Assembly (NCBI RefSeq): GCF_018137965.1
Contig: NZ_CP073100.1
Span: 3,917,754-3,981,753 of the forward strand
Length of the DNA stretch: 64,000 bases
Origin: Luteolibacter ambystomatis
GTDB taxonomy: Bacteria > Verrucomicrobiota > Verrucomicrobiia > Verrucomicrobiales > Akkermansiaceae
Direction of reading: 5' to 3'
Below are positions 7,034-55,828 of this stretch, piece by piece. The translations under genes were made by a program, and so were the position numbers. Each line of letters starts with the position of its first letter. Within the stretch, counting starts at the first letter, position 1. Below the pieces are notes generated by a model. That model saw nothing but the letters and a program-made list of their open reading frames with translations, ran no database searches and was not told the origin of the DNA.

Positions 7034-7035
7034 GC

Positions 7036-8948: not shown

Positions 8949-9017
8949 TTCCGAGGCGAATCTTGATGATTCATGATCGACCGCCTATCGTCCGTGCCTA
9001 CCACTTCCCCCTCGTCC

Positions 9018-10355: not shown

Positions 10356-10407
10356 CAAAACGGCGGACATCCCATCCCCGGACCTGCGGGCTGGAGCCAT
10401 TTCCAGA

Positions 10408-10437: not shown

Positions 10438-10472
10438 GGAATCTAACAGGCCTTTGTCCTCGTCCTCCGTCC

Positions 10473-11246: not shown

Positions 11247-11319
11247 GCTGTTTCCACGACCGCCCCGCACTCACCAACCGTTCCTTCTGTTAGACCATTT
11301 CCCCCCACAACTTTTCCCC

Positions 11320-12204: not shown

Positions 12205-12253
12205 ACTTTCCGGGGCCAGGGTCTCCGGCGACAAGACGGAGACCATTTCCAGA

Positions 12254-12283
12254 TTGAAGCCGACCGCCATGGCAGGATATGAG
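12254..12283 (+). promoter_or_regulatory. Sigma70-like promoter of third FGE-fold gene
   Basis: TTGAAG at 12254-12259, 18-nt spacer, TATGAG at 12278-12283, 41 nt before the start codon. It is flanked by CCATTTCCAGA upstream and CTAACAG downstream, as at 10408-10437. It lies between paralogues 2 and 3, so paralogue 3 can be transcribed independently. Confidence 0.65.
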
Positions 12284-12324
12284 AGAAGTCTAACAGTCTG
12301 CCATCCGCTCTCCTCCCTCCTCCT

Positions 12325-18050: not shown

Positions 18051-18203
18051 GATGGAGGTCCGGCGCGGCGGGTCGATGCGCCTTCCGGGAATAACTCCGC
18101 CAAGTGCGGAAATTTTCTCCGTCAGGTTTCCGGGGGTGCGGGAGATCTACGTCCATCCGGCCCCCGTTCGCGCCGGAGCCCAAACCCATACCCCCGCCAT
18201 CGC

Positions 18204-38032: not shown

Positions 38033-38082
38033 GTCTGAAAAGGAATCGGACCGGCTGGTTGTTCCACATCGGCTCTCCGGGA

Positions 38083-39279: not shown

Positions 39280-39807
39280 TCAGGAATGGAAGACGACGAG
39301 CTTCCGGAAGACGAAATTGGCAAGGGTCGACACCGCGATCACACCCAGTTTGACCCAAAAATCGTTGGCGTGGGAGTACGTGATCAGGTACCACGCCGCC
39401 GATTGTCCCGCCACGAAGCTGGCGGCGGCAGCGGCGGTGAACAGGGCGAATTCCTTCCGTGGAGCATGCCTGCCCGCCACGAAGACCCAGCGCCGGTTGG
39501 TCTCGTAAGTGAAGGCATTGGTCGGGATGAAGCCGACGGCGATTTCCACCAGATTCCAGAGCAACCGGTGCTCGTCGTAGGACGCGCCCAGCTTCATGGC
39601 GATCCAGCGGAACAAGGCGCACGCCGCGAAGAACACGAAAACCGAGGTTCCGCCGATGGCGAGGTACTTGGTGAACTGCCAGCTACCCCGCGCCTCCGGC
39701 TTCATCACGGTGGCGAGGGCGGTCCGCCAGCCACGCTCCCGCGCATCCGAAATCAGCGCCGCGGTGTCCCGCAGCGCATCGAAGGGATAGCGGGCGAGAC
39801 TTTTCAT
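39280..39807 (-). CDS. GtrA-like membrane protein
   Basis: A 175-residue membrane protein with about four helices (YLAIGGTSVFVFFAACALF, LVEIAVGFIPTNAFTYETNR, ALFTAAAAASFVAG, VIAVSTLANFVFRKLVVF). The NRRWVF and the NFVFRKLVVF ending are the GtrA family pattern. GtrA proteins are proposed flippases of undecaprenyl-phosphate-linked single sugars. Its start overlaps the stop of the GT2 gene by 4 nt. Confidence 0.85.
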   Translation of the reverse strand: MKSLARYPFDALRDTAALISDARERGWRTALATVMKPEARGSWQFTKYLAIGGTSVFVFFAACALFRWIAMKLGASYDEHRLLWNLVEIAVGFIPTNAFTYETNRRWVFVAGRHAPRKEFALFTAAAAASFVAGQSAAWYLITYSHANDFWVKLGVIAVSTLANFVFRKLVVFHS

Positions 39808-40610
39808 GCGTCCGTATCGTATTTGCCGGTGCAGGTTTCCACGAGCTGCCGCATCACGGCGAACAGCCCGCCGAAGCCTTTGATCTTGGTCGGCGTCTTG
39901 CCGGTGGCCGGATAGACGCGCGACACCGGAGTCTCGATCACCCGATAGCCGAACGCCGCCGCCTTGATCGCCAGGTGATAGTGCAACTGGTAGCGGTCGA
40001 AGCATGGCCGGAACACGCCGATCTCCGGGTCTGTTAGAAGACGGCGGCTGTAGGCGCGGAAGCCATTGGTCGTATCCGTATAGCGGAAGCCCGCGGCCAG
40101 TGAAATGAGCGGCGCATGGAGAACGTTCACCGCGAGATAGCGGCTGAGAGGCGTGTTCTCATGATGGCCGCCCGGGATGAAGCGGCTGCCCTGGACATGG
40201 TCGAAACCGTTCTCCAACAGCTCCACCATGCTCGGAATCGCATCGAGCCCGTCCTTGCCATTGCCATCGATGACGATCACGCCGTCGTAGCCCTCGGCGA
40301 GGCAGTAGTCGAAGGCCATCCTCATCTGCGCGCTGAGCTTGCCCGGGCCGCGCTTCACCAGCAGTGCCTTCGCACCCGCTTCCTGCATCAAGGCCCCATC
40401 GAGCGAACCATCGGTGCTGCCGCCATCGGCGACGATCACATCCACCAGTGGCGCGTGCTCCGCCATCGCGCGCACCTGCTTGCGGATCTTTTCGCCCTCG
40501 TTGATCACGAACACGCAGATCGCCCATTGCTTCGCACGCGGTCTTTCCCACGCCACTTCATAACGCGGGCTGCGGACATCGTCTCCTCTCAGGATGGTTT
40601 CCACGTTCAC
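39804..40610 (-). CDS. GT2-family glycosyltransferase
   Basis: A 268-residue GT-A glycosyltransferase without membrane helices. The nucleotide-binding region has CVFVINEGEKIRKQV, DVIVADGGSTDGSLD (about 57-71), and a GVIVIDGNGKDGLDAIPSM acidic motif (about 110-128), followed by GSRFIPGG and the HYHLAIKAAAFGYRVIE helix. This resembles dolichol- or undecaprenyl-phosphate sugar synthases. Overlaps 4 nt with both neighbours. Confidence 0.88.
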   Translation of the reverse strand: MNVETILRGDDVRSPRYEVAWERPRAKQWAICVFVINEGEKIRKQVRAMAEHAPLVDVIVADGGSTDGSLDGALMQEAGAKALLVKRGPGKLSAQMRMAFDYCLAEGYDGVIVIDGNGKDGLDAIPSMVELLENGFDHVQGSRFIPGGHHENTPLSRYLAVNVLHAPLISLAAGFRYTDTTNGFRAYSRRLLTDPEIGVFRPCFDRYQLHYHLAIKAAAFGYRVIETPVSRVYPATGKTPTKIKGFGGLFAVMRQLVETCTGKYDTDA

Positions 40611-41605
40611 GATGCCACCTCCTCCTTCGATTCCTTCACGATGCTGCTCTGCACGGTGTCCTCCAAAAGGACCGAGCTGTTCGCCTCATGGCCGATGAAG
40701 TAGAGCGGGCGGCTGCGCACCTCGCCGAGGATCGTTCCCACGTATTCACTGAGCACGGCGAGGATCAGGCAGATGAAAAAGAACATGCCGCTCTGCTGGA
40801 GGGACAGGGTCGTCCAGCCGGCCGCAACGTTCTGCTTCACCAGGTAGATCCCGACCACATAGCAGGCATAGATGAGGTTGAGTCCCGCACCGGCCAGCCC
40901 CGCCAGCGTCACCACCCGCAGCGGATGCCGGGTATTGGCCGCCAGCAGATCGATGGCGGTGGCGGTCTCGGTGGCGAACGATCCGGCTTTCGGCTGATCG
41001 AGCCGCTCGACGCGGCGATATGGAAAGAACTCGTGATGGTAACCCAGCGTGAGCGTCAGCACGCGCAGGTAACGGCTCTGGACGCGCACCTGCAACAGTG
41101 CGTTCACCGCCTGGCGGCTCATCGCACGGAAATCCTCGGCACCGCGCTTCAATTCGACGCCGAGACGCCGGTTGCAGTAGCGCCGGAACAAATTGCCGAG
41201 AAACTCACGCACACCGGAGCGCAGCCGCGGATTCAATGCCACGCCGTGGACGATCCCTCCGTTGGTACGACAGACGGTCACCAGTTCGGGAATCGCTTCC
41301 ACGGGATCTCCCGTGGGATCGAGCGTCACCACATAGTCACCGATGGCCGACTCGATGCCGGCGGACAGGGCCACCTCCCGGCCGAAGGAGCGGGAGAGAC
41401 GCAGGTAACGCACCCGCGGAATGTCCCTGAGCAGACGCTCCGCGGTCTGCCGCGTGTCATCGGAGGAACCGTCATCCACGAGGATGATTTCGAAAAAACG
41501 GTAGTGTCCCTCCATCACGCGGGAGAGATCGGTTAGAAAAGGCGCGAGGATGGCCCCGTCGTTGTCGAGGGGCGCCACCACGCTGATGACGGTATGCGGG
41601 TCCAT
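40607..41605 (-). CDS. GtrB/ArnC-like undecaprenyl-phosphate sugar transferase
   Basis: A 332-residue GT2 with two C-terminal transmembrane helices (about 230-252, LAGLAGAGLNLIYACYVVGI; about 265-290, GMFFFICLILAVLSEYVG), the architecture of GtrB/DPM1 type enzymes that load a single sugar onto undecaprenyl phosphate. The catalytic region has LVDDGSSDDT (42-51) and LDPTGDPVEAIPEL (95-108) where many homologues have DADLQDPPE, a variant acidic site. I chose the ATG at 41605; an earlier TTG at 41635 adds a poorly conserved Cys-rich stretch. Downstream partner genes are the other GT2 and GtrA. Confidence 0.87.
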   Translation of the reverse strand: MDPHTVISVVAPLDNDGAILAPFLTDLSRVMEGHYRFFEIILVDDGSSDDTRQTAERLLRDIPRVRYLRLSRSFGREVALSAGIESAIGDYVVTLDPTGDPVEAIPELVTVCRTNGGIVHGVALNPRLRSGVREFLGNLFRRYCNRRLGVELKRGAEDFRAMSRQAVNALLQVRVQSRYLRVLTLTLGYHHEFFPYRRVERLDQPKAGSFATETATAIDLLAANTRHPLRVVTLAGLAGAGLNLIYACYVVGIYLVKQNVAAGWTTLSLQQSGMFFFICLILAVLSEYVGTILGEVRSRPLYFIGHEANSSVLLEDTVQSSIVKESKEEVAS

Positions 41606-41631
41606 GTGGGGAGACGGAGTGCAGGAGCACG

Positions 41632-42750
41632 TCAAGGAGCGCCGGACAATACGGAGTCCAGTTCGTCCTCGACGTCGAAAATGTTGTCAATTTTGCCACC
41701 CATCACATGGATCAACGCGGGCAGCCCGGGATCCCGCCGGAACAGGATCGGGCGGCCGTCATCGACCTCGGTCTGGGGCAGCAGTGTTTTCACCTCCCAC
41801 AACGAATCACGGTGGACCGCGCCGCGCAGGACCGGCAGGTAGCGGGAGGCATCCCCGACCATGTATTCGAAATGGCTGCGCTTGGAAAGCTGTTCGAAGC
41901 GCTGATAAGGATCGATCGGCTTTTCCCCCGGTTTCTCGAACCACTGGAGATGCGGCGTGTAGCGGACGTGGCTCAGGGTGGTGAGCCCGCGCGAGGGATA
42001 GGGCATGAAGGAGAAGAACGGCCCGCACATCATGGTCACGGACAAGCCGTCCAGATCGGGGGGCAATTCCACCAAGGCCATCTCCGCGAGCTCGTGCTTG
42101 AGGGGGATCGGCGGCAGACCGCTGCCGGATGTGAGCAGATTCAAGCCGCTGTAGGTCGCGTTCACCACCAGCTTCACCCGGTATTCCGACCCATCGTCCA
42201 GACGGACCTCCGCCAAGCCATCGGTCGCCGGTTGGGCGGAAACCACCCGGGTGCCGAGCTTCACCGGAATACCGGCTTCCTCCAAATCGCGGTGGCAGCG
42301 CTGGCGCAGGATCGCGCAATCGAACGCGCACTCCTCGGCGATCCACGAGGCCTCGGTGAGCACGGGGTTGAACAACCGCGCGATCTTGTCAGGCGCTGGT
42401 TTCAACGGCGCGCCGATCCGTTTCATGAACAACTCGAACTGCCCGGCGGACACCTTTGAAAACAACCGCCCCACCGCATAGACCTTCGTGAAGGTGTCCA
42501 CGATGGCCTCGCGGTAGGTATCGCGGAAGCGCTCGTAATTGTGACGCGACCGGTAGGCCGTCATCAGGCTGCGCGGATAGTGGTAGCCGCCGTGGACCCG
42601 CGCCTGGTTCACACGCGAGGCCCTGCCTAACAGCTCCGGCCCGGCCTCCACCACCAGCGGCTTCAGACCGCGGCGATGCAGCATCAGCGCGATCGAGCAG
42701 CCGAAGAAGCCTCCGCCCGCGATCACCACATCCGGTTCCCTGCCGTTCAT
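41632..42750 (-). CDS. FAD-dependent oxidoreductase (DAO-type)
   Basis: A 372-residue flavoprotein. N-terminal FAD motif DVVIAGGGFFGCSIALMLHR (about 7-26), acidic end of beta-2 (LVVEAGP), and the C-terminal domain with GRPILFRRDPGLPALIHVMGGK. It resembles the D-amino-acid oxidase/glycine oxidase fold (DAO). In a polysaccharide operon such proteins may oxidise a sugar or amino-sugar intermediate, but the substrate is unknown. Overlaps the upstream isomerase-like gene by 4 nt. Confidence 0.85.
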   Translation of the reverse strand: MNGREPDVVIAGGGFFGCSIALMLHRRGLKPLVVEAGPELLGRASRVNQARVHGGYHYPRSLMTAYRSRHNYERFRDTYREAIVDTFTKVYAVGRLFSKVSAGQFELFMKRIGAPLKPAPDKIARLFNPVLTEASWIAEECAFDCAILRQRCHRDLEEAGIPVKLGTRVVSAQPATDGLAEVRLDDGSEYRVKLVVNATYSGLNLLTSGSGLPPIPLKHELAEMALVELPPDLDGLSVTMMCGPFFSFMPYPSRGLTTLSHVRYTPHLQWFEKPGEKPIDPYQRFEQLSKRSHFEYMVGDASRYLPVLRGAVHRDSLWEVKTLLPQTEVDDGRPILFRRDPGLPALIHVMGGKIDNIFDVEDELDSVLSGAP

Positions 42751-43574
42751 TCCGGAATACGATAGCATTCCCGCGTCTTGCGGATCGCCAGTCCCACCGA
42801 AGGCACGATGTCCTCCTGGGCTTTCATTTCAATGGCCACGTCTCCACGGTAGCCGGCCTTGTCCAACGCGTCCGCCACCCGCTGATGCACGGGATCGGGT
42901 TCGTCCCATGGGCCGAGGTTCGGCTGGCTGGCATGGGCGTGGGCGATCAGATGCGAGGCCTGTGCAATCACCGGCTCGAAGTTCTCTCCGCTCAAGGCCA
43001 GTCCGCCCGCATCCACATGCAGGCGGAAGCCCGGTGAGGAAACCGCCGTCACCAGATCGGCCGCCTGATCCATGCGGGTGCAGAAGTCCGCGCCGTAGGC
43101 TTCGGGATTCGCCTCCATCACCAGACACGAACCGGCCTGATGGCAGGCATCACCAACTTCACGGAAAAACTCCGTCGCGATCTTCATCGCCTCCGCGTGG
43201 GACCGCGATCCCTTCAGGCGGTTCTTCGGCGAGCCGAATACCATCGGTCCGGCCCCGCACCATCCCGCCACCTGCCCGACCGCGATCAACCATTCCTTCA
43301 TCCGCAGGCGGGAGGCCTGGTCATCGAAAAGGAACACTCCATCGGCACCAAACAAGAGTGCCTGGAACGAGCCGATGCGGAAACCTCGTCCGGCATACCA
43401 CTCCGCCTTTGCGCGCACGGCTTTTTCATCCGCACACAGGGGATCGCCGAAGGCCCGCAACGGTGCGAGTTCGACCGTCTTGACGCCGAGCTCGAGCGCC
43501 TTGTCCAACAACTCTTCCTCCCGGTCGGGAGGCCAGGCGATGTGCGAGATCGAAAGGTGGGAAGAAACAATCAT
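42747..43574 (-). CDS. TIM-barrel sugar phosphate isomerase/epimerase-like protein
   Basis: A 275-residue AP-endonuclease-2-like TIM barrel. Recognisable features are the N-terminal strand SSHLSISHIAWP, CLVMEANPEAYG (Glu at about 151, metal ligand), FRLHVDAGGLALSG (Asp at about 188), and HLIAHAHASQPN (His). These acid/His positions fit metal-binding isomerases such as xylose isomerase-like proteins. Cotranslated (4-nt overlap on each side) with the FAD oxidoreductase and a GT-C-like protein, so it may supply or modify a precursor. Confidence 0.82.
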   Translation of the reverse strand: MIVSSHLSISHIAWPPDREEELLDKALELGVKTVELAPLRAFGDPLCADEKAVRAKAEWYAGRGFRIGSFQALLFGADGVFLFDDQASRLRMKEWLIAVGQVAGWCGAGPMVFGSPKNRLKGSRSHAEAMKIATEFFREVGDACHQAGSCLVMEANPEAYGADFCTRMDQAADLVTAVSSPGFRLHVDAGGLALSGENFEPVIAQASHLIAHAHASQPNLGPWDEPDPVHQRVADALDKAGYRGDVAIEMKAQEDIVPSVGLAIRKTRECYRIPE

Positions 43575-45154
43575 CGGATGGAGGTGGCGGGACCGGCCGG
43601 TTCGTAGCGCAGGAGTGTGAGGCTGCCGAGCATCGTTTCCCTTTTGCCCCATGGCCCGAGGGCCGCGGTCGTGTTCACGATGGGCTCGAAAGCGGTGAGC
43701 CGGTGCCAAGGACCGGCTTTCCCTTGAAGAACGGGAACCAAGGGCCAGGGCAGAATGCCGGAGGGATCGGAGTCCGCATCGCCGTCCACGATCAGGATGT
43801 CTCCATTCGAAAGCGCGGAAAGCGATTGCTTCTCATACACCAGCCGCCGCTCGGCCGGAATCAGATTGGGGAAAGTCGTGAAGCGGATGCGGGCCCATTC
43901 CTCCGGCGGTCGTTCGGCCGCCGCTTCCCATAGGGAAAGCGGAATGAAAACCGTGCCGGTGCTGGTAGCCAAAGCTTCCGCCAAGACCTGGCGCGCGCGA
44001 TCCCGCGGTGATGTGGGTTTGGAAGTCGCCACCGCAACCGTCGCCAATACCAGAGGCAGCACGCAGGCCACCGCCTGCCCACCAAGGCCCAACCTCACAA
44101 GACCGCGCCAGGCTCGTGGAAATCCGGACACAAGATGGAATGCCGCACCCGCCGCAAATCCGATGAACGGCGCAACCACCGCACCATGCCCGATGTTCGG
44201 ATGACCCGTCGCGATCAGATACAGCGGTGCGAGCAAAACCAGCGCAATGGTAAGGGTGAGAGCCGGAGTCGTTTCCGCACGGGCCGCCTTGCCCCCTTTC
44301 CACCACGCCAGGACGCTGCAAGCGGTAATGAACAGAAGCGGAGCGGAGAAGAATACATTCCTGGGATCGAGGAACAGGCGGGTGAATGTCTGGACGATCC
44401 CCGACTTCAGCCCGCGCATCGCGGAAAGCGTGTCCTTCAACTGTTGCAGGCGGGCGGGATCGGACTGGTAGTAAAAGGCGAACCACGCCACCCCGACGAG
44501 CAAGGGCAGCCACCATTTCCACAGCGCCGTGCGGCCATCCCGGAAAGTTCCCGCCAGCACAATGAGGCCCGCTCCGGCCAGGGTCAGAGGATGAACCGAA
44601 GGAGCGAGAACCAGACAGATCGGGGCCACCCACAGGTGCCATTTCCGCGATTGGGAGGAAAGCAATGGTACCGCCGCGAACCACAGCAACACCGACGCCC
44701 ATGTTTCCGGCCGATCGAGGAATGCCATGCTCGCAAACCACCCGCGATGGAACAGCACGGTCAGAAAGCCGATCGACGCCCCGGCGCTTGAACGGAATTT
44801 CCCATGCAGCAGCAGACCGACATGCACGGCGACTCCAAAGCGCAGCAAATGCAACAGCGACGCATCTCCCAGGCATGACCATGGCAGCAGGGTGCCGAAC
44901 CAGGAACGCGCCAGCGGCCAGCCGAACCAGTGATAGCCCCACGTGTGATCGAAGCCTTCAAAGGTTCCCACAAACGGCCAGGCCAAATGCCCGGGATGTT
45001 TGCCCAGCGCAGCACCGACACTCTGGAATCCATCCGGAAAGCCGGGTTTGATGACGTACCACCCCGTCCACATCGACAAGGCGGCCCATGCCAGCCCGAC
45101 GATCAGGAAGCCCACCATCAAGGGCAGACGCTTGATAACTTTCTCCACCGTCAT
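43571..45154 (-). CDS. GT-C-like membrane protein, paralogue 1 of 3
   Basis: A 527-residue membrane protein with about ten helices, which I do not recognise as a named family. It shares conserved motifs with two others in this operon: DGFQSVG (41-47), FDHTWGYHWFGW (68-79), DRPETW (about 147), HPNIGHGA (about 312), and a soluble C-terminal end with VFIPLSLWEAA (402-412), RFTTFPN, and NGDILIVD. The large first periplasmic loop with Asp, His and Trp residues is where GT-C glycosyltransferases bind their substrates. A polyprenyl-phosphate-sugar-dependent glycosyltransferase is my best guess. Overlaps its two neighbours by 4 nt each. Confidence 0.7.
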   Translation of the reverse strand: MTVEKVIKRLPLMVGFLIVGLAWAALSMWTGWYVIKPGFPDGFQSVGAALGKHPGHLAWPFVGTFEGFDHTWGYHWFGWPLARSWFGTLLPWSCLGDASLLHLLRFGVAVHVGLLLHGKFRSSAGASIGFLTVLFHRGWFASMAFLDRPETWASVLLWFAAVPLLSSQSRKWHLWVAPICLVLAPSVHPLTLAGAGLIVLAGTFRDGRTALWKWWLPLLVGVAWFAFYYQSDPARLQQLKDTLSAMRGLKSGIVQTFTRLFLDPRNVFFSAPLLFITACSVLAWWKGGKAARAETTPALTLTIALVLLAPLYLIATGHPNIGHGAVVAPFIGFAAGAAFHLVSGFPRAWRGLVRLGLGGQAVACVLPLVLATVAVATSKPTSPRDRARQVLAEALATSTGTVFIPLSLWEAAAERPPEEWARIRFTTFPNLIPAERRLVYEKQSLSALSNGDILIVDGDADSDPSGILPWPLVPVLQGKAGPWHRLTAFEPIVNTTAALGPWGKRETMLGSLTLLRYEPAGPATSIR

Positions 45155-46665
45155 TCGATCACGGGAGGATGGTCGATGCGGATCACCCGATAGGTCCGGG
45201 TCCCATCGAGTCCTTGGATGGTGACTTCATCCAGCACCGGCCCCAGGGAAAGCGGGTCGACGAAGGTGAGCCGCATCAGCGCCTCCGGGCGGAAGTAGGC
45301 GCTGCCCACCTGACGTTGGGACCATTCATACAAGAGAATGTCGCCGTTGGCGCAGGAAGCGAACAGAGATCTCTCCGCATCTCTGCGGCAGTCGGGAGTC
45401 GCCACGTTCGGGAAGGTATAGAACCGCGCGTTCTCCACTCCCGCCGCTGCAGCCGCTTCCCACAGACTGCATGGAATGAACACTCTTCCTTGCGAAGCCC
45501 ATCGCTCCACCAGCGCCTGGGATGCCGGGCGCGCTGAAACTCCACGCGTCCGCCAGGCATCGATCATGCGGTTCCCTTGGAAAGCCGCTCCGTATACGAA
45601 ACATCCACCCACTACCGCCCGGAATGCCGGTTTGCCGAATCGGGATGTATTCCACGGCGACCGGCAACAAGCGCAGACCATGCACGGCACGAGCGCCGCC
45701 ACATGCAGGCGGTTCGGATTGTGTGCGAGCAGGGAGAACAAGGCGGCTCCCACCGGCATGGCCGCCCACAGGGCAAACTTCAACGCCCCACTCTCCCGCC
45801 TGCCAAACCAAAGGGACACGAGAGGATACATCCACAGAGCCAGCATCAACATGCCGAACGGGTTTCCATAGCAAAGGCGGAAACCCGTCAGCAAAGAGTG
45901 ATAGGACAAGCGCTGCGCCGCGAGATTTTGAGTGAACTGGTGGAAACGTGTCGCATCTCCGAGAAACCAGACGGCGAGTCCCGTCACTCCGCAGAACCAT
46001 CCGGCCATCAGCCACACGATCCGGACAAACATCCCGTCCGCCCGCATCCGCTGCCATCGCAGGCGGTGCCACAACATCCACACGCCGATCAAAAACGGTG
46101 GCGCCACCACACCGACCACGTGGACGAAAGGCAGGCAGAAAGCCAGGAGGGCGATCAGGAGATTGCCTCCTTTGGCGCTCTCCCGATCCGTCACCAGCCA
46201 TGCAAGGCCGAGGAACAACACTCCGGCGAAAGGCTCCGGCCTCATCATCCCCACCGCAACGTGCAGGTCCGGCCACGCCAGCACGACCGCGGCTGCGATC
46301 CACGGCCAAATCCCACCGACGTGATGGCTGAGACGGCCCACGGCTGCCGCCCCGCCCACCAGCATCGCGGACCCCAAGGCGAATTCAAACAGCGGATGAA
46401 AGCCGATCCACGGCTGGAGAAAGCTGCGGAACATCGCCCATCCCGGCCAGTGATGGCCCCATGTTTGGTCGAAGCCGTCGAAGCTTCCCAGAAATGATCC
46501 GCGCAAGTCGAAGGGATGCTTCGCAAAAGCCACAGGACCGAGGCTCTGCCACGAGTCCGTGATCACGGAGCCGGAGAGCCAGGCATACCAAGCCGCCCAG
46601 ACGAATGCAGCGGCCAGCAGGAGGCCTCCTCCTGCTTTCACCCGCCAATCGATCACCCGGTCCAT
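45151..46665 (-). CDS. GT-C-like membrane protein, paralogue 2 of 3
   Basis: A 504-residue multi-pass membrane protein, paralogous to the preceding one. Motifs: DSWQSLG (37-43), FDQTWGHHWPGW (65-76), RPEPFA, NPNRLHVA, then VFIPCSLWEAAA (395-406), RFYTFPN and NGDILLYE. It has the same helix layout. The start at 46665 follows a GGGAGG Shine-Dalgarno by 9 nt; longer in-frame starts overlap the epimerase gene. See paralogue 1 for the possible role. Confidence 0.7.
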   Translation of the reverse strand: MDRVIDWRVKAGGGLLLAAAFVWAAWYAWLSGSVITDSWQSLGPVAFAKHPFDLRGSFLGSFDGFDQTWGHHWPGWAMFRSFLQPWIGFHPLFEFALGSAMLVGGAAAVGRLSHHVGGIWPWIAAAVVLAWPDLHVAVGMMRPEPFAGVLFLGLAWLVTDRESAKGGNLLIALLAFCLPFVHVVGVVAPPFLIGVWMLWHRLRWQRMRADGMFVRIVWLMAGWFCGVTGLAVWFLGDATRFHQFTQNLAAQRLSYHSLLTGFRLCYGNPFGMLMLALWMYPLVSLWFGRRESGALKFALWAAMPVGAALFSLLAHNPNRLHVAALVPCMVCACCRSPWNTSRFGKPAFRAVVGGCFVYGAAFQGNRMIDAWRTRGVSARPASQALVERWASQGRVFIPCSLWEAAAAAGVENARFYTFPNVATPDCRRDAERSLFASCANGDILLYEWSQRQVGSAYFRPEALMRLTFVDPLSLGPVLDEVTIQGLDGTRTYRVIRIDHPPVIE

Positions 46666-46684
46666 GCGGCAGTCCCTCCCACCC

Positions 46685-47431
46685 TCAAAGCCAGTCTCCG
46701 AGATCATCCAGCACTTGCTCCTTCGAATAAAGGTAGCCGTTCGATCCGCCCCATTCGGCCGCGTGCTTCGAACGCATGTCGTAGCCCGCGGGAGGAGGAC
46801 CTTCACCACCGAGGAGACGCTCCGGGAAGAAGCGGTCGCGGATTTCCGAAGTGGCGACCGGCTCGGAAGAAACGTTCAGCAGGTCGATGCCGCGCTCCCA
46901 CACATGACCGATGTCCGCCGCCAATCTACGGGTATCGTAGTATTGGAACACGCCGCCGGGATGAACCTTGTGGAGCTCGTTGTCGTGCATCATGTCATAG
47001 ATCACGTTTTTCTTCAGCCCCGGACCGAACAAGCCGGGCAGCCGCAGGATGGAAACCCGCGGGAACAACCCGCGGATGCGCTCCTCGGCGTCCAGACGAT
47101 TCAGGCCATAGGCGTGATGCCCCTCGACCGGGATGGGAGAGTCCTCGTCCACGTCACGCGGGGCGGGATAGACATCGATGGTGGAGATGAGGGTGAAACG
47201 ATCCGCGCGGACTTCCGCCAGGGCCTCCAGCAACCGCGCGATCCCGGCCTTGTCTTCTTCCGGATGCAGGTTCGCCCACCACTTCTTCGCCTGCACGCCC
47301 GCACAGATGACATGCCCGAAGGATTGCCCGCGGATGTTGTCGATGTCCGTCGAACGATAGCGATGGGAAGGAGACAAGGCGTCGGCAAGGGTGGATCCGA
47401 CGAAGCCGGTGTGGCCGATGAGGGCGGTCAT
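46685..47431 (-). CDS. NAD-dependent epimerase/dehydratase (SDR-type)
   Basis: A 248-residue extended-SDR-like protein, shorter than the usual 300-plus. Rossmann GXXGXXG as ALIGHTGFVGSTLAD (3-17), a STIDVYP segment with HHAYGLNRLDAE giving the catalytic YxxxK-like Tyr (but Asn-Arg in place of Lys), and a C-terminal YLYSKEQVLDDLGDWL. The atypical YGLNR suggests altered or lost dehydrogenase chemistry. Likely acts on a nucleotide sugar or nucleotide-linked precursor. Overlaps its upstream SGNH partner by 4 nt. Confidence 0.8.
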   Translation of the reverse strand: MTALIGHTGFVGSTLADALSPSHRYRSTDIDNIRGQSFGHVICAGVQAKKWWANLHPEEDKAGIARLLEALAEVRADRFTLISTIDVYPAPRDVDEDSPIPVEGHHAYGLNRLDAEERIRGLFPRVSILRLPGLFGPGLKKNVIYDMMHDNELHKVHPGGVFQYYDTRRLAADIGHVWERGIDLLNVSSEPVATSEIRDRFFPERLLGGEGPPPAGYDMRSKHAAEWGGSNGYLYSKEQVLDDLGDWL

Positions 47432-48300
47432 GGTTGCGATGAGGGAAGGGTCGTGATGAATTCCTGCAGGCTGTCCAACACGGCCCGCGCGGAGCCGGGT
47501 GCGAGATGGACGCCATCGGTGAACTGGAGGTTTTCGTGCGGAATCTGCTGCTCCAGATTGACGAAAGGCACGTCCGCCATTTCCGCCACATACGCGGTGG
47601 CTCGATCAGTGACCTCCCGCCCTTCCGGACGCATGGGAGCGGAGGGGTATTCCACCAGGATGATCCGGCTGCCGGACTCGCGCAGCATCGCGATCATGCG
47701 AATCAATTCATCGAGAGTTTTTTTCTCCAAGGCATCCCTGGGCTGGATTCCCTTCGGGAGCGTGGTCCGCGCCAATGGAAAGCGCCGTGTGGTGGTGTCT
47801 CCCGCCGGTCGCTTCAACAATCTGTCATAGAGCATGCCGCTGGGGCGCGCCTGATAGGAAAACACCGGCAGGTGGGTTCCCGCCCGGAACACCGGACCTC
47901 CCACCGCTTTCAAAATCGGAGAAGCCTCGTACTTCACCGCACGCTCGATGGTATTGGACTCGAGCACGATCCACTTGCCGGCTTTGACGCGGCCTTCCAC
48001 CAGCATCCGCATGCCATCGGTGAGACAGCCGCCGTCGGTTCCAAGGTTCGCCACCTTGGAATTGCCCACCTCCTTGCCGGGCAACCGCCCGCTGATGGAG
48101 GACCCTACCAGGGTGAACTCCGCCGGAGCTCCGGATGCCGCGGCCTGGAAGCGTGACAGCGAGGTGAAATAGTTCGACTCCGTCTTGCTGCTCTTCCACC
48201 CGAGGCCATAGGCTCCGGACCACTGCAGAATCGCGCAGACGAGGAAGCCCGCCAACGTCCCGGCCAGGAACTTCCGCAGATGGGTAGGTGGGGATTCCAT
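47428..48300 (-). CDS. Membrane-anchored SGNH-like protein (acetylation partner)
   Basis: A 290-residue protein with one N-terminal helix (FLAGTLAGFLVCAILQW) and an exported domain. SGNH-like features: FTLVGSSISGRLPGK (Ser in GSS), LGTDGG, LESNTIE, and TDGVHLAPGS (Asp-x-x-His) near the C-terminus. Such AlgJ/AlgX-type proteins work with MBOAT proteins to transfer acetyl groups to exported polysaccharide. The MBOAT gene is directly upstream, 12 nt away. Confidence 0.82.
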   Translation of the reverse strand: MESPPTHLRKFLAGTLAGFLVCAILQWSGAYGLGWKSSKTESNYFTSLSRFQAAASGAPAEFTLVGSSISGRLPGKEVGNSKVANLGTDGGCLTDGMRMLVEGRVKAGKWIVLESNTIERAVKYEASPILKAVGGPVFRAGTHLPVFSYQARPSGMLYDRLLKRPAGDTTTRRFPLARTTLPKGIQPRDALEKKTLDELIRMIAMLRESGSRIILVEYPSAPMRPEGREVTDRATAYVAEMADVPFVNLEQQIPHENLQFTDGVHLAPGSARAVLDSLQEFITTLPSSQP

Positions 48301-48312
48301 GAAGGAAACGGC

Positions 48313-49839
48313 TTAGAACTGGAAATAGATGAAGCCTTGCGGCGCACCCGAATTGGTGAAGATCAGGAACAGCAGGCCGCCGTAGATCAAAGCCTCGCAC
48401 CAACTTCCGCGGAAGTCCGCGAACCAATCGCGGCGGTGTTCACGGACCCAACCGGCCACGTGATACAGCACCACGGCCGAGCCGAAGACCGCAGCCACGA
48501 ACACCGGCGGCCCTGCCATGTGGAGTGGTCCCGCGAGTTGCTTGAAGAAAAGGCCGATCTGCCGCATGTCCGGCATCAGGAAGGTCAGCCACAGCAGGGT
48601 GACGGCGTGAAAGGTGTAGAACCATCCGAGCACCGCCCGCATCGGACGCGGCCTCTCATCCTTGCCACGGCGCCGGAAGAAAAATCTCTCCGCCGCCAGC
48701 AGCAATCCGTGCAAGGACCCCCATAACGCGAACTTCCACTCGGCTCCGTGCCACAAGCCGCCGAGGAACATGACAAGGAAGAGATTCACATATGTTCTCG
48801 CTTCCCCCTTCCGGTTTCCACCCAGTGGGATGTAAAGATAGTCCCGGAGCCACGCGGACAGGGACATGTGCCAGCGCCGCCAGAATTCCGTCACGCTGGT
48901 GGAGAGGTAGGGGAAATCGAAGTTCTCCGGGAAACGATAGCCGAACAAGGCCGCGAGGCCGATGGCGATGAGGGAGTAGCCCGCGAAGTCCGCGAAGATC
49001 TGGAGCGAGTAGCCATAGAGCAGCATCACCAGATCCACCGGTCCGGCGAAAACCAACCAGGGTTTCGTCAGCGTGACGGTTTGCTCCGCGAGGTTGTCCG
49101 CCACCACCATCTTCAGGAAATATCCGAGAATCAGCGAACGCAGGGCCGCACCCCACGCGATGTCCGCGAAACGCTTGGACGCGATCTGCGGCCAGAACTG
49201 CTTCGCCTTCACAATCGGTCCCGCAACCAACTGGGGGAAGAACAACAGGTAGAAGCCGATGTCGCGGACGCCCTTCGCAAACCGCAGGCCGTAGCCCCAG
49301 AGGATGCCGAGCCGGCTCTTCCCCGCGGTGTTCCGCCCCTGTTCGTCCGCTGCACCCTCGCCACCGGACATGAGGGCATCGCTTTCCCGGATCACCTCCC
49401 CGCGGGCGACATCAATGATCATGCTGATGCCATGGAAGGTGTAGAACGAAATGCCGATCGGCAGCGGGATGCCGCGCAGCGCCTCCACCCATTGCGTGGG
49501 CAGGAATGGCAGCATTCCCGCGAAGAACGGCGCATACTTGAATACGCCGAGCAGGGCCAGGTTCAGGATGACGGCGGTCCGAACCCAGCGTTTTACCTTC
49601 GCGTCATCTCCGGACAGCTTGTGCAGGATGATCCTGCCGGTGGCGATGCTGTTGCCCACACAAGACACCGCGAGCAACAACAGCAGCCGCGGATCCTCCC
49701 AACCGTAGAAGATCACACTGGCCAGCAGGGCGATCGACACCTGCCACGCCTTGCCATGGCGACCGCCGGACCAAGGCGCGTAATACGCGGCGAAGGTGAC
49801 CACCAGCAGGACGAGAAACTCCCAGGAATTAAAAAGCAT
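48313..49839 (-). CDS. MBOAT-family O-acyltransferase (AlgI/DltB-like)
   Basis: A 508-residue multi-pass membrane protein. The two MBOAT histidines are His324 (FWRRWHMSLSAWLRDYLYIP split at that point) and His364 (GGLWHGAEWKF). The family moves acyl groups across the membrane to a periplasmic acceptor. With its SGNH-like partner it should O-acetylate the exopolysaccharide. The fragment ADEQGRNTAGKS around 163-175 is an insertion in a loop. Starts at 49839 with MLFNSWEFLVLL, the usual MBOAT beginning. Confidence 0.93.
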   Translation of the reverse strand: MLFNSWEFLVLLVVTFAAYYAPWSGGRHGKAWQVSIALLASVIFYGWEDPRLLLLLAVSCVGNSIATGRIILHKLSGDDAKVKRWVRTAVILNLALLGVFKYAPFFAGMLPFLPTQWVEALRGIPLPIGISFYTFHGISMIIDVARGEVIRESDALMSGGEGAADEQGRNTAGKSRLGILWGYGLRFAKGVRDIGFYLLFFPQLVAGPIVKAKQFWPQIASKRFADIAWGAALRSLILGYFLKMVVADNLAEQTVTLTKPWLVFAGPVDLVMLLYGYSLQIFADFAGYSLIAIGLAALFGYRFPENFDFPYLSTSVTEFWRRWHMSLSAWLRDYLYIPLGGNRKGEARTYVNLFLVMFLGGLWHGAEWKFALWGSLHGLLLAAERFFFRRRGKDERPRPMRAVLGWFYTFHAVTLLWLTFLMPDMRQIGLFFKQLAGPLHMAGPPVFVAAVFGSAVVLYHVAGWVREHRRDWFADFRGSWCEALIYGGLLFLIFTNSGAPQGFIYFQF

Positions 49840-49863
49840 GCCGTAAACTGGGGAGTCCCCCCG

Positions 49864-50847
49864 TCAAATCAGTCTTTCACGGAACAGCCTGCGCAGCAGC
49901 TCCGACGCGGTGGCCATGGCGAAAAGGGTCACGGGCAGGGCCACCACCGCCGCCCATCGCATGTCCAGCTTGGTCACCACGGCCGTCAATTCCACAATCC
50001 GCTTCAGGCAGAAGCAGTGCAGGCAGAAGATTCCGAGGGAATTGCGGGATAGGAACGTCAGCCAGGCCGGAGGAGCCGAAGTCACGCCAAGGGCCGCCGT
50101 GATCGCCAAGGCTCCTCCGAGAATCGGCGACGGCCGCAAATACTCCGGCAGGAAATGGCGGTCCGGCCCCACCATCCAGCCCGGTGCCTTGGCCAGCCAT
50201 TCGAGGGAGGCGGAAACTACAAAGGCCACGAACAGCCCCCTGAGCATCCATTTCCGATCCACGGATGGCTCCGCCAGCACCCTGGCAATGAATGGTGCGG
50301 CTAGGAAATTCAACGGCCACCAATACGTCGCCACATGGGTCCAGATCCAACCGGTGGAGGCCATGGCGACGAGCAGCACGCCATTCAGCCCTATCAGCGC
50401 TGCCGCCCAAAGACATGCCGTACGCACGTTCATCGCTCCCGCCAACCGCGCGATCGGACACAGCAACAAAAGCACCGTGAAGAAATAAAACGTCCAGCCG
50501 CCGCCGCGCAGCAGGAATTCCACGGGACCCAGCGTCATGGAGTCCCGCCCCCGCCACGTCCACACAAACCAAAGGCCGACCCAGAACACATACAGCGCGC
50601 CAAATCTCTTGAGACGGCGCGCATAAGCCCTGGCATCCTCCCGCGCTTCCACCTGGAGGAAATACGACATGATCAGAAAACCGGGAACAGCCACGCCCAG
50701 CACATCCGCGATCACGACATCCCACCAGGACGGATCGGCACCGGCATTCTCTCCGGCGAGGTTCAGATGCATCGCGATCACGAACGCGATGAACGTCACT
50801 CTCAGCCAGTCGAAGCCATACCAGTGCTTTTCTTTCTCTTCACCCAT
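49864..50847 (-). CDS. Acyltransferase family 3 membrane protein, paralogue 1
   Basis: A 327-residue acyltransferase-3 protein with about ten helices. It begins WYGFDWLRVTFIAFVIAMHL; the His of MHL is the catalytic-type residue of the family. The end LSRNSLGIFCLHCFCLKRIV and ELLRRLFRERLI match the second acyltransferase of this operon. Such enzymes O-acetylate sugars from a cytoplasmic acetyl donor. ATG at 50847 is followed by the charged MGEEKEKHWYGFDWL; upstream in-frame sequence was rejected as overlapping the SGNH hydrolase end region. Confidence 0.87.
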   Translation of the reverse strand: MGEEKEKHWYGFDWLRVTFIAFVIAMHLNLAGENAGADPSWWDVVIADVLGVAVPGFLIMSYFLQVEAREDARAYARRLKRFGALYVFWVGLWFVWTWRGRDSMTLGPVEFLLRGGGWTFYFFTVLLLLCPIARLAGAMNVRTACLWAAALIGLNGVLLVAMASTGWIWTHVATYWWPLNFLAAPFIARVLAEPSVDRKWMLRGLFVAFVVSASLEWLAKAPGWMVGPDRHFLPEYLRPSPILGGALAITAALGVTSAPPAWLTFLSRNSLGIFCLHCFCLKRIVELTAVVTKLDMRWAAVVALPVTLFAMATASELLRRLFRERLI

Positions 50848-50881
50848 GCTCGTCTGGGAAAAACCTGGTCGCCGGAACCCC

Positions 50882-52984
50882 TCAGCTGTCCGCAAGCTGG
50901 ACGTAAACCCGCAGGAACCGCCTCGTGGCCCAACCGGAGGCCGGCATCGTGACACGCCACTTCTGGCCGGTGCGTTCCACTACGGTTCCCGTAGGAAGCT
51001 GGTTGGTCCAGTTGACCAGATCGGTGGACCATTCGACCGCGTAGGTCACTCCCTGGGCCTCGGCATCCGCGTTCAAGGTGCACTCCAGCACCTGGGTGCC
51101 GCCCGCCCCCCGGGTGCAGCGGGGCAGGTTGGCCACAGGCGCATTGCCGTCCGCGCCCGCCGGCCCGAAGGCGTAGGCCACCAGCGCCGGGTCGGTCGAT
51201 GCGGGATCATGATGCACATAGACAGGCGGGCTCGGAGGCGTCACCGGAGTCAGCGGGGCGGTCACACCGGAATTCGGATAAGTGGTGACCACGGACCAGA
51301 CGATCTGCTGGAGCTTGGTGGCGACTTCCGGAGGGAAGTTCACCGGCACATCCGTGGGGAAATCCGCGCTGATTCCCTTGGCTGGCAGGCCCACGGGGGA
51401 TTTCTTGAAGAGGGTGGCGTAGTGGGTGAGCGCGGAGATGTAGGCTCCCATGTCGCTGGGGTGGCGCTCATCCAGATAGAGCGAATCGCGGTTGTAGCCG
51501 CTCAATACCCCGGTGCCCAGTTGGGAAGCGACGGCACGCAACGCCTCACCCGCGGGAATGATCAGCGCGGGCTTGCGTCCACCGCGGCTGATGTTGGTCC
51601 GGATCTGTTCGAACGAGGCGTTGATCGCGTTCTGGGTGGAAACCGATTCACTGGAATAGGGCCAGTAGGCGTAGAGGTAAACCTGCGTGCCTGCCGCATC
51701 CGCGATGTCGTAGAACCGCTGGGCGTACGTTTGGAAATCGCCCATGGCGTAGGATTGCCATTCGCGGCTGTGGGGCTGGATCACCAGGGCATCCCAGGTG
51801 CCGGTCGGCAGGTCGGCGCGGGAAGGCGTGCCGGTGTAGAAACCGCCAAGACCGGTATCCCAGTGGAAATGCAGGGTCTGGGCATCGGTCATCTGGTAGC
51901 CGGCCGCGAGATCACCACCGGTGGCCTGGACCAGATTGGTGAGTTCCTGCGGAATATTGCTCCAGCGGGTGAAGCTGTTTCCGATATGGAAGGTGGACAT
52001 GGATTCCGCCGTGTGGATCGTCCCCACCCAGCCGGAATAGGTGACGGTTCCCTGGGTCCGGCCGGTCGCCGCCCGTGGCACCACGCCCACCCGCAGATAA
52101 GCGCCCTGATCCGCCGCAGTCAGCGTGTGCGCCCGCTCCGAAGCCGAAGGCCCGCTCAAACGAACCACCGTTCCACCCGAGGGGTTGGTGGTTCTCTCCC
52201 AGATGAACTGGGTATCGCCCTCGGCATCCCCGTCCTGATCGGCGTAGGTGTAAACGGGCGTCACCGCGCCGCCCACCCGGAGCGCTCCCACCACCCCCGC
52301 ATTGCTGGCGGCGGGCGGGAAGTTGACCACGTTCATGGTCTCCAGGCGCAACGCATTCAGATACCCGTAGCTGCCGGTATCCCTGCGGACGGAAATGGTG
52401 ATCACGCCGTCCGTGGTCGGCCGCACGTTCTCAAACACCGCGAGCCCCGAACGGTTGGCATTCGGCTGGCTGGAGGTGTTGATCGCTTGACCGCTGGCTT
52501 TCAGTGTCTGGGAGGAGCTGGTTTGCAATCCCGAGATATCATAACGCGTGATCCGGGTTTCGGTGGTGTCCCGCGATCCGAAGAGGGAGATGCGGAAGAT
52601 GCCGTCCGTCGGAAGATTCGACAGCGTGACCGTCAGGACATCACTCCCCGCCACGTAAAAGCTGTCCATGGTGGCGGAGGGCACCGCCAACCCACCGAGG
52701 GCGCTTGCATCCGGCACGGTGGTTCCGGAGGTATTCGCTCCCGAAAGAAATCCGGCGACCGAGAGGCCGATGCCGGTGGAATCGCCCGTATCGGTCAGCA
52801 GATTGCCCAGCGCGGCAACCGGCTGGGTATCGATGACGTTGTTCCAACGGCGTCCGTTGGCATCGGGACTCGCCGTCTGCTGGCCGCCCGCTCCGAAGTC
52901 CACGTAGGCCGTGGAAACCTGTGACCATGCAAGGATCGGGCACCAAAAGAGTACGCCCGTGCAACGGAGAAGCAGTCGATTCAT
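50882..52984 (-). CDS. Large secreted SGNH-type hydrolase
   Basis: A 700-residue secreted protein with signal peptide MNRLLLRCTGVLFWCPILAW. N-terminal about 25-220 has a beta-sandwich-like region (YVDFGAGGQQTASPDANGRRW without a gap exceeds a motif; key residues Tyr, Asp, Gly). The SGNH-type catalytic domain is about 335-560: STFHIGNSFTRW (Ser in GNS, block I) and YLDERHPSDMGAY (Asp/His, block V). The end holds a short beta domain with paired Cys (LPRCTRGAGG, QVLECTLNAD). Probably a carbohydrate esterase acting on the polymer made by this operon. Its 176-nt upstream gap contains a doubled AGGTTCT and possibly a promoter. Confidence 0.8.
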   Translation of the reverse strand: MNRLLLRCTGVLFWCPILAWSQVSTAYVDFGAGGQQTASPDANGRRWNNVIDTQPVAALGNLLTDTGDSTGIGLSVAGFLSGANTSGTTVPDASALGGLAVPSATMDSFYVAGSDVLTVTLSNLPTDGIFRISLFGSRDTTETRITRYDISGLQTSSSQTLKASGQAINTSSQPNANRSGLAVFENVRPTTDGVITISVRRDTGSYGYLNALRLETMNVVNFPPAASNAGVVGALRVGGAVTPVYTYADQDGDAEGDTQFIWERTTNPSGGTVVRLSGPSASERAHTLTAADQGAYLRVGVVPRAATGRTQGTVTYSGWVGTIHTAESMSTFHIGNSFTRWSNIPQELTNLVQATGGDLAAGYQMTDAQTLHFHWDTGLGGFYTGTPSRADLPTGTWDALVIQPHSREWQSYAMGDFQTYAQRFYDIADAAGTQVYLYAYWPYSSESVSTQNAINASFEQIRTNISRGGRKPALIIPAGEALRAVASQLGTGVLSGYNRDSLYLDERHPSDMGAYISALTHYATLFKKSPVGLPAKGISADFPTDVPVNFPPEVATKLQQIVWSVVTTYPNSGVTAPLTPVTPPSPPVYVHHDPASTDPALVAYAFGPAGADGNAPVANLPRCTRGAGGTQVLECTLNADAEAQGVTYAVEWSTDLVNWTNQLPTGTVVERTGQKWRVTMPASGWATRRFLRVYVQLADS

Positions 52985-53160
52985 GGGTTTGACAGGGGAG
53001 CAATGAATGCCGCGGCACCCGGGGGGATGCGGACGGCTCAAACCCGGAATTCAAAATCCTTCGGCAACGTTCCAGGTTCTAGGTTCTTTCAAAAAAGCAT
53101 CCCGCCTGAAATTATGCAAACGTTCCCCTGCCTCCCTACGCGATTTTTCGGCTTATGCCC

Positions 53161-54249
53161 TCATACCAGCCGGTGCCTGAATGCCCGGCGCAGGAACTCC
53201 GTTGCAAATGAGCAACAGACGATCAGCACGGCGCAGCCGAGAACAACCGAAGCTCCCTGCCATTGAGGCGCATATTTCCCCAGCACGGCCGCCGTGGCTT
53301 TCACGAATCCACCGAGCACAAATGGATGCAGGCAGTAGGTTCCCAGGGCATTCCTCGAAAAGAAGGAGAACACCCGCCCCGGCTTTGCTTTCACTCCGAT
53401 GGCCAGCAGCACGATCACCATCGCCCCGAACTGGATCGAGAACCGCGCGTGCTTCGGAATCCAGCGGCGTTCTTCATCCAGGGAATCCAGCGGCAGCGCG
53501 TGGCTCCATTCCCATACGGCGGCCAGGATCGCCAGAACGAGGAAGGCACCGATCCATTTCCATCGCGCGGCCCGGGAGTGCCGCAGCATCTCCACATGCG
53601 GCACCATCAGGGCGGCCACAAAGGGCATCATGGTGAAACAGGTGGGCAGCCAATAGTAGTGCGAGTGCGTCCAACGGTTGTCCAGAAGCAGCCACTGGTA
53701 AGTCCCCGCCAGAACAGCCGCCGACAGCAGCAACCCCACCCATTGCCCGCGGCGTGACAACCGGCCCGCCACCCAACCCAGCCAGGTGCAGATGATCAGC
53801 ACCGCGATGAAGTAGAACACCCAGTTCCCGCCCCTCAGCAGGAACTCGATGACCCCAAGGACTCCCGGGTGCTCCGGTTTCGATTTGGTATAGAGCACCC
53901 AAGCCCCCACCCAGAAACCGTAGAGGTATCCGAGGTTCGTCAATCTCGCCCAAGTGCGTTCCCAAGTGGGGGTCTTGAGCAGGAACAGGATCATCGATAC
54001 CAGAACGAACGCCGGGACGGCGCAGGACTGCAGGTGGAAATAGAAATAGTCCCAGACATTCGGCCCCTGTCCGACCACGGCGGCGCGGTCTTCCGCCCAG
54101 CCCTTGATCAGATTGGCATGGCCGACGATGACGGAGACCATGAAAAACACCCGCAGGTAGTCGAATCCCCATATACGGGGGGAGTCGGCCTCGGGTGAAG
54201 GACGTTGGATCGCTACCGGCTTGGTTTCGGGCTGGAGGACGAGAGACAT
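53161..54249 (-). CDS. Acyltransferase family 3 membrane protein, paralogue 2
   Basis: A 362-residue acyltransferase-3 protein. It begins with a cytoplasmic 26-residue leader and IWGFDYLRVFFMVSVIVGHA (family His in GHA). The C-terminus FFSRNALGTYCLHPFVLGGF and EFLRRAFRHRLV matches paralogue 1, showing a duplication within the operon. Likely adds acetyl or another acyl group to a lipid-linked or nascent sugar. The ATG at 54249 was chosen because earlier in-frame residues are basic shadow sequence from the upstream gene. Confidence 0.86.
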   Translation of the reverse strand: MSLVLQPETKPVAIQRPSPEADSPRIWGFDYLRVFFMVSVIVGHANLIKGWAEDRAAVVGQGPNVWDYFYFHLQSCAVPAFVLVSMILFLLKTPTWERTWARLTNLGYLYGFWVGAWVLYTKSKPEHPGVLGVIEFLLRGGNWVFYFIAVLIICTWLGWVAGRLSRRGQWVGLLLSAAVLAGTYQWLLLDNRWTHSHYYWLPTCFTMMPFVAALMVPHVEMLRHSRAARWKWIGAFLVLAILAAVWEWSHALPLDSLDEERRWIPKHARFSIQFGAMVIVLLAIGVKAKPGRVFSFFSRNALGTYCLHPFVLGGFVKATAAVLGKYAPQWQGASVVLGCAVLIVCCSFATEFLRRAFRHRLV

Positions 54250-54271
54250 GCGAATGAAACCGGGATTGCAG

Positions 54272-55828
54272 CTACTTCCGGCGGAAAACCTGGAACACGG
54301 TGGCCTGGCTGTCCGAGTAGCGGACCGGTGCGGAGATTTCACCCATGGGCTCCCATAGATCCTCAACCCCGATGGGCTGGATAAGTTGGTGTTTCAATGC
54401 CGTTGCAGTCACAAAGTTGAAGACCCCGCCCTGTTCCTGCAGCGGGTCCCAGACCAGCAGGTCGCCCGGAGCCGTATCAGCCATCACCATTTGCTCGTAT
54501 TCGGACCGTTCGCGCCGTGGCAGGATGTTAGGAAATGTCGAAAAGCGGAAGTCCCTCCCCTGTCCGGGTCGCAAGGCGGCTTCCCATAAACAGACCGGAA
54601 TCAGAACCCGCCGGGAGGGAGGCAGACGGTCCAACGTCTTCGCCAATCCGTTCCGGTAGCTTTCTCCTCCTGATCGCAGCAGCAACCATGCCTGTTTGGC
54701 GGGGTAAACGGCCATCAGGCCACATGCCACAGCCATCACCGGTATCAGGAGTTTCCCGGAACGGAGCATGGTGATTTTCCGGCCACCCGCGCACACGAGC
54801 CAGACGGCGAACGGGAGCACCCCGACGAAGTGGAGGGGATTGGGATTCCGGCCCACCACATTCAGCGCGAACGAAATCACGATCGCCAATGCGGGCAGCA
54901 GAAGTATGTCGTTGCTGGTGTCCTTCGGGTTCCGCACCGCCCGTAGCAGCAGGCAAATCCCATAGGCGAATGCAGGGACAAGCAGAACCAGCAAGGGGAT
55001 CGCGCCCCGGCCGCTCAAGCCCCAGCGGAACAAGGTGAGATAGCCGGCCCCCATTCCATCCACCAGCATCCGCTGGCTGGCGAGGTTCAGCTTGAACTGC
55101 GCCCACGCGTCCGGTTGCAAGCCATACCAAGCCACGAACAACAGCACGCCTCCCGCCAGTGCCAGCACGGGCGGAAGCGTCCTCCGGACCGCAGCCATCA
55201 AACCATTCCGGCACCACTCCAGTACTGCCACCCCGGCACACCACGCTCCCGGCACCACCAGTCCGAGCGGATGCAAGGTCGGCAGGATCAACAGCAGCAA
55301 ACTCCGGCAAACCAGCGTCCGTTTGGTATCCTGCCACCAGCATCCCGCCAGTAGCACCAAGGCGCAGGCAGTGGGGATCTCCGGCCGGTAGCTCTGAAGC
55401 GCCGTCAGTATCCCCGGCGCGGCGAGTGTGAAAAACCCGGCCGCCATCCCGGTCACCTTCCCCTCCGCCTTTCCGACCAATACCGCCACCCGCGTGGCCG
55501 TCAGAATCCACAGTCCCCACAGCAAGGAAACATCCGCTCCGGGACTCCAGGACACCACCGGGATCAACCATGATCTCAGCCACGGCCAGCCGAACCAATG
55601 GAATCCCCACGTCCGGTCGTAGCCCATGAAGGATCCCACCAGAGGCCACCGCAGGCTCCCGGGGCCATGCGATCCTGCGGCGGCGCCGATGCTTTGGAAA
55701 CCATCCACGATCACGCTGCCCGTGCACAGGGCCAGCACGGGCGCGAGGATGATCCACCCGCCCGCTAACAAAATGGCCGCGGCTGCCAAAGCCCGCGACC
55801 ATGTCCTGCCTGACCGCATTTGAATCAT
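54272..55828 (-). CDS. GT-C-like membrane protein, paralogue 3 of 3
   Basis: A 518-residue multi-pass membrane protein. Shared motifs: DGFQSIG (42-48), YDRTWGFHWFGW (70-81), RPEIPTA, NPNPLHFV, VLIPVCLWEAA (408-418), RFSTFPN and GDLLVWD. It sits about 8 kb upstream of the other two, between an acyltransferase and a GT4 gene, and overlaps the GT4 stop by 4 nt. Predicted GT-C-type glycosyltransferase or similar; no direct evidence of activity. Confidence 0.7.
   Translation of the reverse strand: MIQMRSGRTWSRALAAAAILLAGGWIILAPVLALCTGSVIVDGFQSIGAAAGSHGPGSLRWPLVGSFMGYDRTWGFHWFGWPWLRSWLIPVVSWSPGADVSLLWGLWILTATRVAVLVGKAEGKVTGMAAGFFTLAAPGILTALQSYRPEIPTACALVLLAGCWWQDTKRTLVCRSLLLLILPTLHPLGLVVPGAWCAGVAVLEWCRNGLMAAVRRTLPPVLALAGGVLLFVAWYGLQPDAWAQFKLNLASQRMLVDGMGAGYLTLFRWGLSGRGAIPLLVLLVPAFAYGICLLLRAVRNPKDTSNDILLLPALAIVISFALNVVGRNPNPLHFVGVLPFAVWLVCAGGRKITMLRSGKLLIPVMAVACGLMAVYPAKQAWLLLRSGGESYRNGLAKTLDRLPPSRRVLIPVCLWEAALRPGQGRDFRFSTFPNILPRRERSEYEQMVMADTAPGDLLVWDPLQEQGGVFNFVTATALKHQLIQPIGVEDLWEPMGEISAPVRYSDSQATVFQVFRRK

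Follow-up and report, generated by a model that had tools for sequence, protein, structure and literature searches.

We show here that three genes within a 64,000-nucleotide stretch of the Luteolibacter ambystomatis genome (contig NZ_CP073100.1, positions 3,917,754 to 3,981,753; hereafter the window) encode members of a sequence family that is new and as yet unnamed, and that can be assigned, with strong computational support, to the GT-C glycosyltransferases, a known type of enzyme. The three proteins, termed P1, P2, and P3, probably act outside the cytoplasm within a GtrA/GtrB-type glycosylation system and decorate an exopolysaccharide, with a different side sugar for each. Paralogy, fold (for two of the three copies), the positions of conserved acids, operon context, co-occurrence, and the one-by-one gain and loss of copies among relatives were all computed.

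P1 (43571 to 45154; 527 amino acids), P2 (45151 to 46665; 504 amino acids), and P3 (54272 to 55828; 518 amino acids) are the only copies of the family in the genome. An earlier reading made from the letters alone (the sequence-only reading) had placed these coordinates exactly but requires correction as to strand, as all three lie on the minus strand and the plus-strand reading has stops. Its description of the proteins as paralogues is borne out by pairwise BLASTP (E-values of 6e-38, 4e-33, and 3e-23; identities of 31, 29, and 28%), and because these matches extend over 448-480 columns they reflect near full-length homology rather than chance sharing of motifs. The seven motifs that it listed (D[GS][FW]QS, [FY]DxTWGxHWxGW, RPE, [HN]PNxxH, V[FL]IPxxLWEAA, RFxTFPN, and GD[IL]L) are present in that order in each protein. 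Residues specific to the individual subfamilies adjoin the shared motifs (for example, P1 has HPN where P2 and P3 have NPN, and position 76 is F, Y, or H), a pattern that would fit differing specificities. The P3 start codon overlaps the stop codon of the GT4 gene upstream (ATGA), and overlaps of the same type link P1 to the upstream P2 and to the downstream TIM-barrel gene, which fits a single translationally coupled operon.

AlphaFold models were analysed for P3 (pLDDT 89.1, pTM 0.91) and P1 (pLDDT 88.9, pTM 0.90), while the fold of P2 is predicted from its homology to these. Both models contain the GT-C (GT-CA) core of transmembrane (TM) helices with a juxtamembrane helix after the first of these (TM1) in the first outer loop. 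Using Foldseek against PDB, every match at E ≤ 0.001 was a GT-C enzyme, namely OST/AglB/PglB, ALG9, and ALG12 for P3, and OST/AglB/PglB, ALG9, ArnT, and DPY19 for P1. Upon structural re-alignment, 50 of 50 rows had the GT-C fold, a few of them being PIGU, a non-catalytic subunit of the GPI transamidase. The top re-alignment match of P3 was ArnT (Z 19.0, root-mean-square deviation (rmsd) 5.0, 438 aligned residues); P1 aligned with Pmt4 (Z 20.5, rmsd 4.5, 362 aligned), EmbB (Z 20.1), and ArnT (Z 18.4, rmsd 4.6, 437 aligned). The comparison of predicted structures with GT-C folds that the sequence-only reading had proposed as a check thus returned GT-Cs alone among significant PDB matches, and no transporter. 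Transporters appeared solely at E > 0.1 with TM-scores of approximately 0.1, and a transporter or other non-transferase identity was rejected.

Profile-profile alignment of 18 family members against 22 PMT_2-type proteins of the same class gave an E-value of 4.9e-9 over 429 columns (probability 95.5), compared to E-values of 0.04-0.6 for control alignments with four other families of multi-spanning proteins from these clusters (MBOAT, Wzy-like, acyltransferase-3, and ligase); such pairwise profile E-values are rough, and it is the contrast between PMT_2 and the controls that counts. This alignment suggests that the family is remotely linked to PMT_2/ArnT-like enzymes. Together, predicted fold, remote profile homology, and the placing of conserved acids strongly support the GT-C interpretation first put forward from the sequence.

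An invariant aspartate follows TM1 in each protein (D41 in P1, D37 in P2, and D42 in P3), and D42 is conserved in 18 of 18 family members. In the P3 model it begins the helix spanning residues 41-51, and it falls on the PMT_2 column occupied by the aspartate of the D[DE] motif (D in 12 of 18 ungapped rows). A second invariant acid, E150 of the RPE motif, falls on a column of the second outer loop of PMT_2 proteins that is D or E in 16 of 17 ungapped rows. D42 and E150 correspond to D55 (active site) and D158 (substrate contact) of ArnT (PMC7801869), and the catalytic D58 of PimE opens the helix following TM1 at the same position in the fold as D42 (PMC12041525). Judging from alignment and model, the aspartate after TM1 would thus sit at the position of the GT-CA catalytic base, and a catalytic role is predicted for it.

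The absence of a recognised family name, remarked upon in the sequence-only reading, is confirmed by database searches. No Pfam match to P1-P3 exceeded the cut-off, the best being with an unrelated model (E 0.016), searches of NCBIfam and of PDB sequences returned no match, and none of the 18 family members had a PMT or PMT_2 Pfam match (one gave a sub-threshold STT3 match, E 0.033). A profile built from P1-P3 matched strongly in 3 of the 388 phylum genomes, and further relatives lay within the family and genus; a wider search of the phylum with an 18-row profile added weak partial matches only, and a scan of species genomes added two further pond Verrucomicrobiaceae, together with G269, a genome found before. 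Invariant throughout the 18 members (P3 numbering) are D42, W74, G75, W78, G80, R148, E150, G227, N330, P339, W415, and E445, while the LWEAA and TFPN motifs, characteristic of the three main clades, are weaker in distant members. A literature search yielded nothing on such genes in Verrucomicrobiota.

In the family tree the P1, P2, and P3 types form separate clades with support of 100/100, 100/100, and 97/96, respectively. Each clade has members from several genomes and at least two genera, and the duplications are therefore old; on this phylogeny, P1, P2, and P3 are orthologous subfamilies that predate the split of the genera. Given this age, the adjacency of P1 and P2, which are not sisters in the tree (the deep order being weakly supported, 81/74), is no sign of a recent event. 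Hence, of the duplication and divergence suggested by the sequence-only reading, the paralogy stands, whereas a recent local or tandem duplication is rejected. Phage-borne seroconversion was also considered and rejected, as no relative was detected among viral contigs and no viral structure matched with E < 0.001; likewise, no plasmid-borne copies of the family were found. In G269, the P1 orthologue (L010, 1438-3042) is interrupted after residue 458 by a TAG in frame, beyond which the frame stays open, indicating a pseudogene, a recent mutation, or an assembly error.

The operon genes whose coordinates are given in this paragraph all lie on the minus strand. Downstream of P1 lie, in order, a xylose-isomerase-like TIM barrel (42747 to 43574; PF01261), a FAD-dependent oxidoreductase of the DAO type (41632 to 42768; PF01266), two GT2 proteins, and a small GtrA-family membrane protein (39280 to 39807; PF04138 above cut-off, start set by homologue length) proposed as a lipid-linked-sugar flippase. 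The first GT2 (40607 to 41635) resembles PgfS/ArnC polyprenyl-phosphate sugar synthases across the whole length of those proteins, covering the PgfS (1e-38) and ArnC (1e-25) models at scores below the equivalog cut-offs, and is proposed as a GtrB-type donor synthase. The second (39804 to 40610) resembles AglJ/dolichyl-phosphate hexose synthases (DPM-like) and is a second proposed donor synthase. The operon further encodes an NAD-dependent epimerase/dehydratase-like protein (46685 to 47431; PF01370), a polyprenyl glycosylphosphotransferase predicted to initiate repeat-unit synthesis (36614 to 38086; TIGR03025, PF02397), a Wzy_C/O-antigen-ligase-type membrane protein that is a candidate polymerase or ligase (33636 to 35627), GT4 and GT2 transferases, an MBOAT protein, and two acyltransferase-3 proteins; a Wza/Wzc-type pair is found elsewhere in the window.

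The AglJ-like GT2 and the GT-C family occur in an identical set of 6 of 59 relatives. Were the two independent, the chance of such agreement would be approximately 2e-8 (1 in C(59,6)), a figure that is too small given shared ancestry and linkage. The GT-C gene adjoins the AglJ-like GT2 in three divergent clusters. The oxidoreductase is present in five of the six GT-C-bearing relatives and in two others; in the remaining one of the six (G765), the GT-C and the GT2 are located at a contig end. The complement of GT-Cs varies between clusters whose operons are otherwise shared: all three are present in the window and in G269, P3 and P1 in L015 and L017, P1 and P2 without P3 in L039, and P3 alone in L040, L041, and L042.

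In the mechanism that we propose, the two GT2s would load sugars onto polyprenyl phosphate on the cytoplasmic side, and GtrA would flip the resulting lipid-linked sugars. Each GT-C would bind a lipid-linked sugar below its first periplasmic loop, with the invariant aspartate acting as general base for sugar transfer, and would deliver the sugar to a site distinct from those of the other copies, on the polymer or on its lipid-linked repeat unit. Catalysis, the sharing of donors, the acceptor, and the formation of one linkage per copy are the parts of this mechanism that we infer.

Several points weigh against the proposal. Identity to solved GT-Cs is approximately 8-14%. In the D[DE] pair, the second acid (E56 in ArnT; E in 15 of 22 rows of the corresponding PMT_2 column) is replaced, mostly by Gly or Ser, giving D[GS] in place of DE, DD, or DxD, and no equivalent of ArnT K203 was found at the aligned column, which a conserved His adjoins; because of these two differences we file the family under the GT-CA fold and not under PMT_2. 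Two candidate donor synthases would have to serve three transferases, and since the co-occurring genes share a cluster, their co-occurrence is partly co-inheritance. Finally, no report of a sugar, linkage, or polymer structure was found for these bacteria.

The nearest folds of P1 and P3 include Pmt4 and OST/AglB/PglB, and beside the exopolysaccharide operon, on the opposite strand, lie an exosortase (PF09721) and an EpsI-like gene (a weak match) at 31891 to 33620. The GT-Cs could accordingly be envisaged to glycosylate proteins, for example PEP-CTERM proteins of the nearby exosortase, in the manner of PMT or OST, rather than a polysaccharide. We consider this unlikely: the genes are embedded among polymer genes (initiating phosphotransferase, GT4s, ligase, MBOAT, and acyltransferases), the gain and loss of GT-Cs follows the make-up of the polymer cluster, and the top structural match of P3, ArnT, is a modifier of a glycolipid.

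The sequence-only reading had proposed periplasmic transferases that branch or extend the polymer. With respect to extension, three copies could add successive main-chain residues outside the cell, and the chain-building arabinosyltransferases EmbB and AftA/B/D, themselves GT-Cs, are among the structural matches. Nonetheless, for each copy there are clusters in which it is missing although phosphotransferase, GT4s, MBOAT, and ligase are retained, and since a cluster that had lost a backbone enzyme would not be expected to preserve its remaining machinery, we judge backbone building to be decidedly improbable. Such dispensability would be hard to explain in a backbone enzyme, but not in side-sugar transferases, and decoration is thus likelier than extension; branching is also the role supported by the donor synthases, flippase, and co-distribution. 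That catalysis has been lost and the GT-C fold kept in a scaffold or polymer-binding protein, like PIGU, which is among the structural matches, might be suggested by the missing second acid, but both the catalytic-position aspartate and the second-loop acid are retained without exception by all 18 members, unlike in a decayed active site, and this explanation is very hard to credit.

If P1-P3 do decorate an exopolysaccharide, the logic of surface-sugar decoration by GtrA, GtrB, and a GT-C would extend to the exopolysaccharide clusters of Verrucomicrobiota, and a protein family so far without annotation can be named and given a mechanism open to experiment. That three ancient subfamilies have come and gone independently of one another within syntenic clusters is as expected for a glycan-diversifying system, and subfamily content would allow side sugars to be predicted relative by relative.

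The epimerase, TIM barrel, FAD oxidoreductase, and two GT2s travel as a cassette, here in the region of 42747 to 47431 and in L102 at 6203-12764, where epimerase, TIM barrel, oxidoreductase, GT2, GT2, and GT-C are contiguous and the other genes of the cluster differ. Rather speculatively, and with considerable doubt on our part, this cassette, including the GT-C, might make and transfer a lipid-linked sugar that is remodelled during or after loading of the carrier, a function like that of DprE1/DprE2 arising from unrelated enzyme families; in that case the GT-Cs, with D[GS] in the active site and an unusual sugar to transfer, would found a CAZy family of their own.

Other features of the window were observed in passing. 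A 539-amino-acid protein beside GT4 genes (59086 to 60705) is kept in the clusters and is Wzy-like by position and apparent hydrophobicity alone, having no Pfam or NCBIfam match. A protein of 645 amino acids (60795 to 62732), likewise kept in syntenic clusters, has a weak NCBIfam match to HAD hydrolases and no Pfam match. Three consecutive look-alike open reading frames (10473 to 13098), two of which encode FGE-sulfatase-domain proteins, follow a caspase-domain protein (8973 to 10355), and a large autotransporter-like protein (17694 to 23057; a frame of 1787 amino acids) carries passenger-associated transport repeats (PATR).

When compared to characterised systems, the family can be set against the ArnT/PMT_2-type (PF13231) GT-CA enzymes, with which it has in common the overall fold including a C-terminal soluble domain (Z 19.0 and 18.4), the aspartate after TM1 and the second-outer-loop acid at matching columns, and a full-length profile alignment. 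It differs from them in lacking a Pfam match, in having D[GS] for D[DE], no K203 equivalent found, and an identity of approximately 10%, and in possessing motifs of its own (WGxHWxGW, PNxxH, and LWEAA). GT136 (Citrobacter ORF12, compared by description) and the mycobacterial EmbB and AftA are likewise GT-Cs that use lipid-linked donors on an extracytoplasmic polymer, and the structural matches of the family include both EmbB and AftA. The pentofuranose donors of GT136 and of EmbB/AftA derive from phosphoribosyl pyrophosphate (PRPP), whereas the synthases found here resemble ArnC/PgfS and AglJ. A parallel in gene content is offered by the three-component GtrA/GtrB/Gtr systems, multi-component transmembrane glycosylation systems that act on O antigens and cell wall polymers (PMC11127046, PMC8035078): GT2s resembling polyprenyl-phosphate-sugar synthases, a GtrA protein, and GT-Cs occur here in one operon. 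The system predicted here departs from these in that its three paralogous GT-Cs are accompanied by no more than two synthases, and in its placement within an exopolysaccharide operon alongside an oxidoreductase, isomerase, and epimerase cassette.

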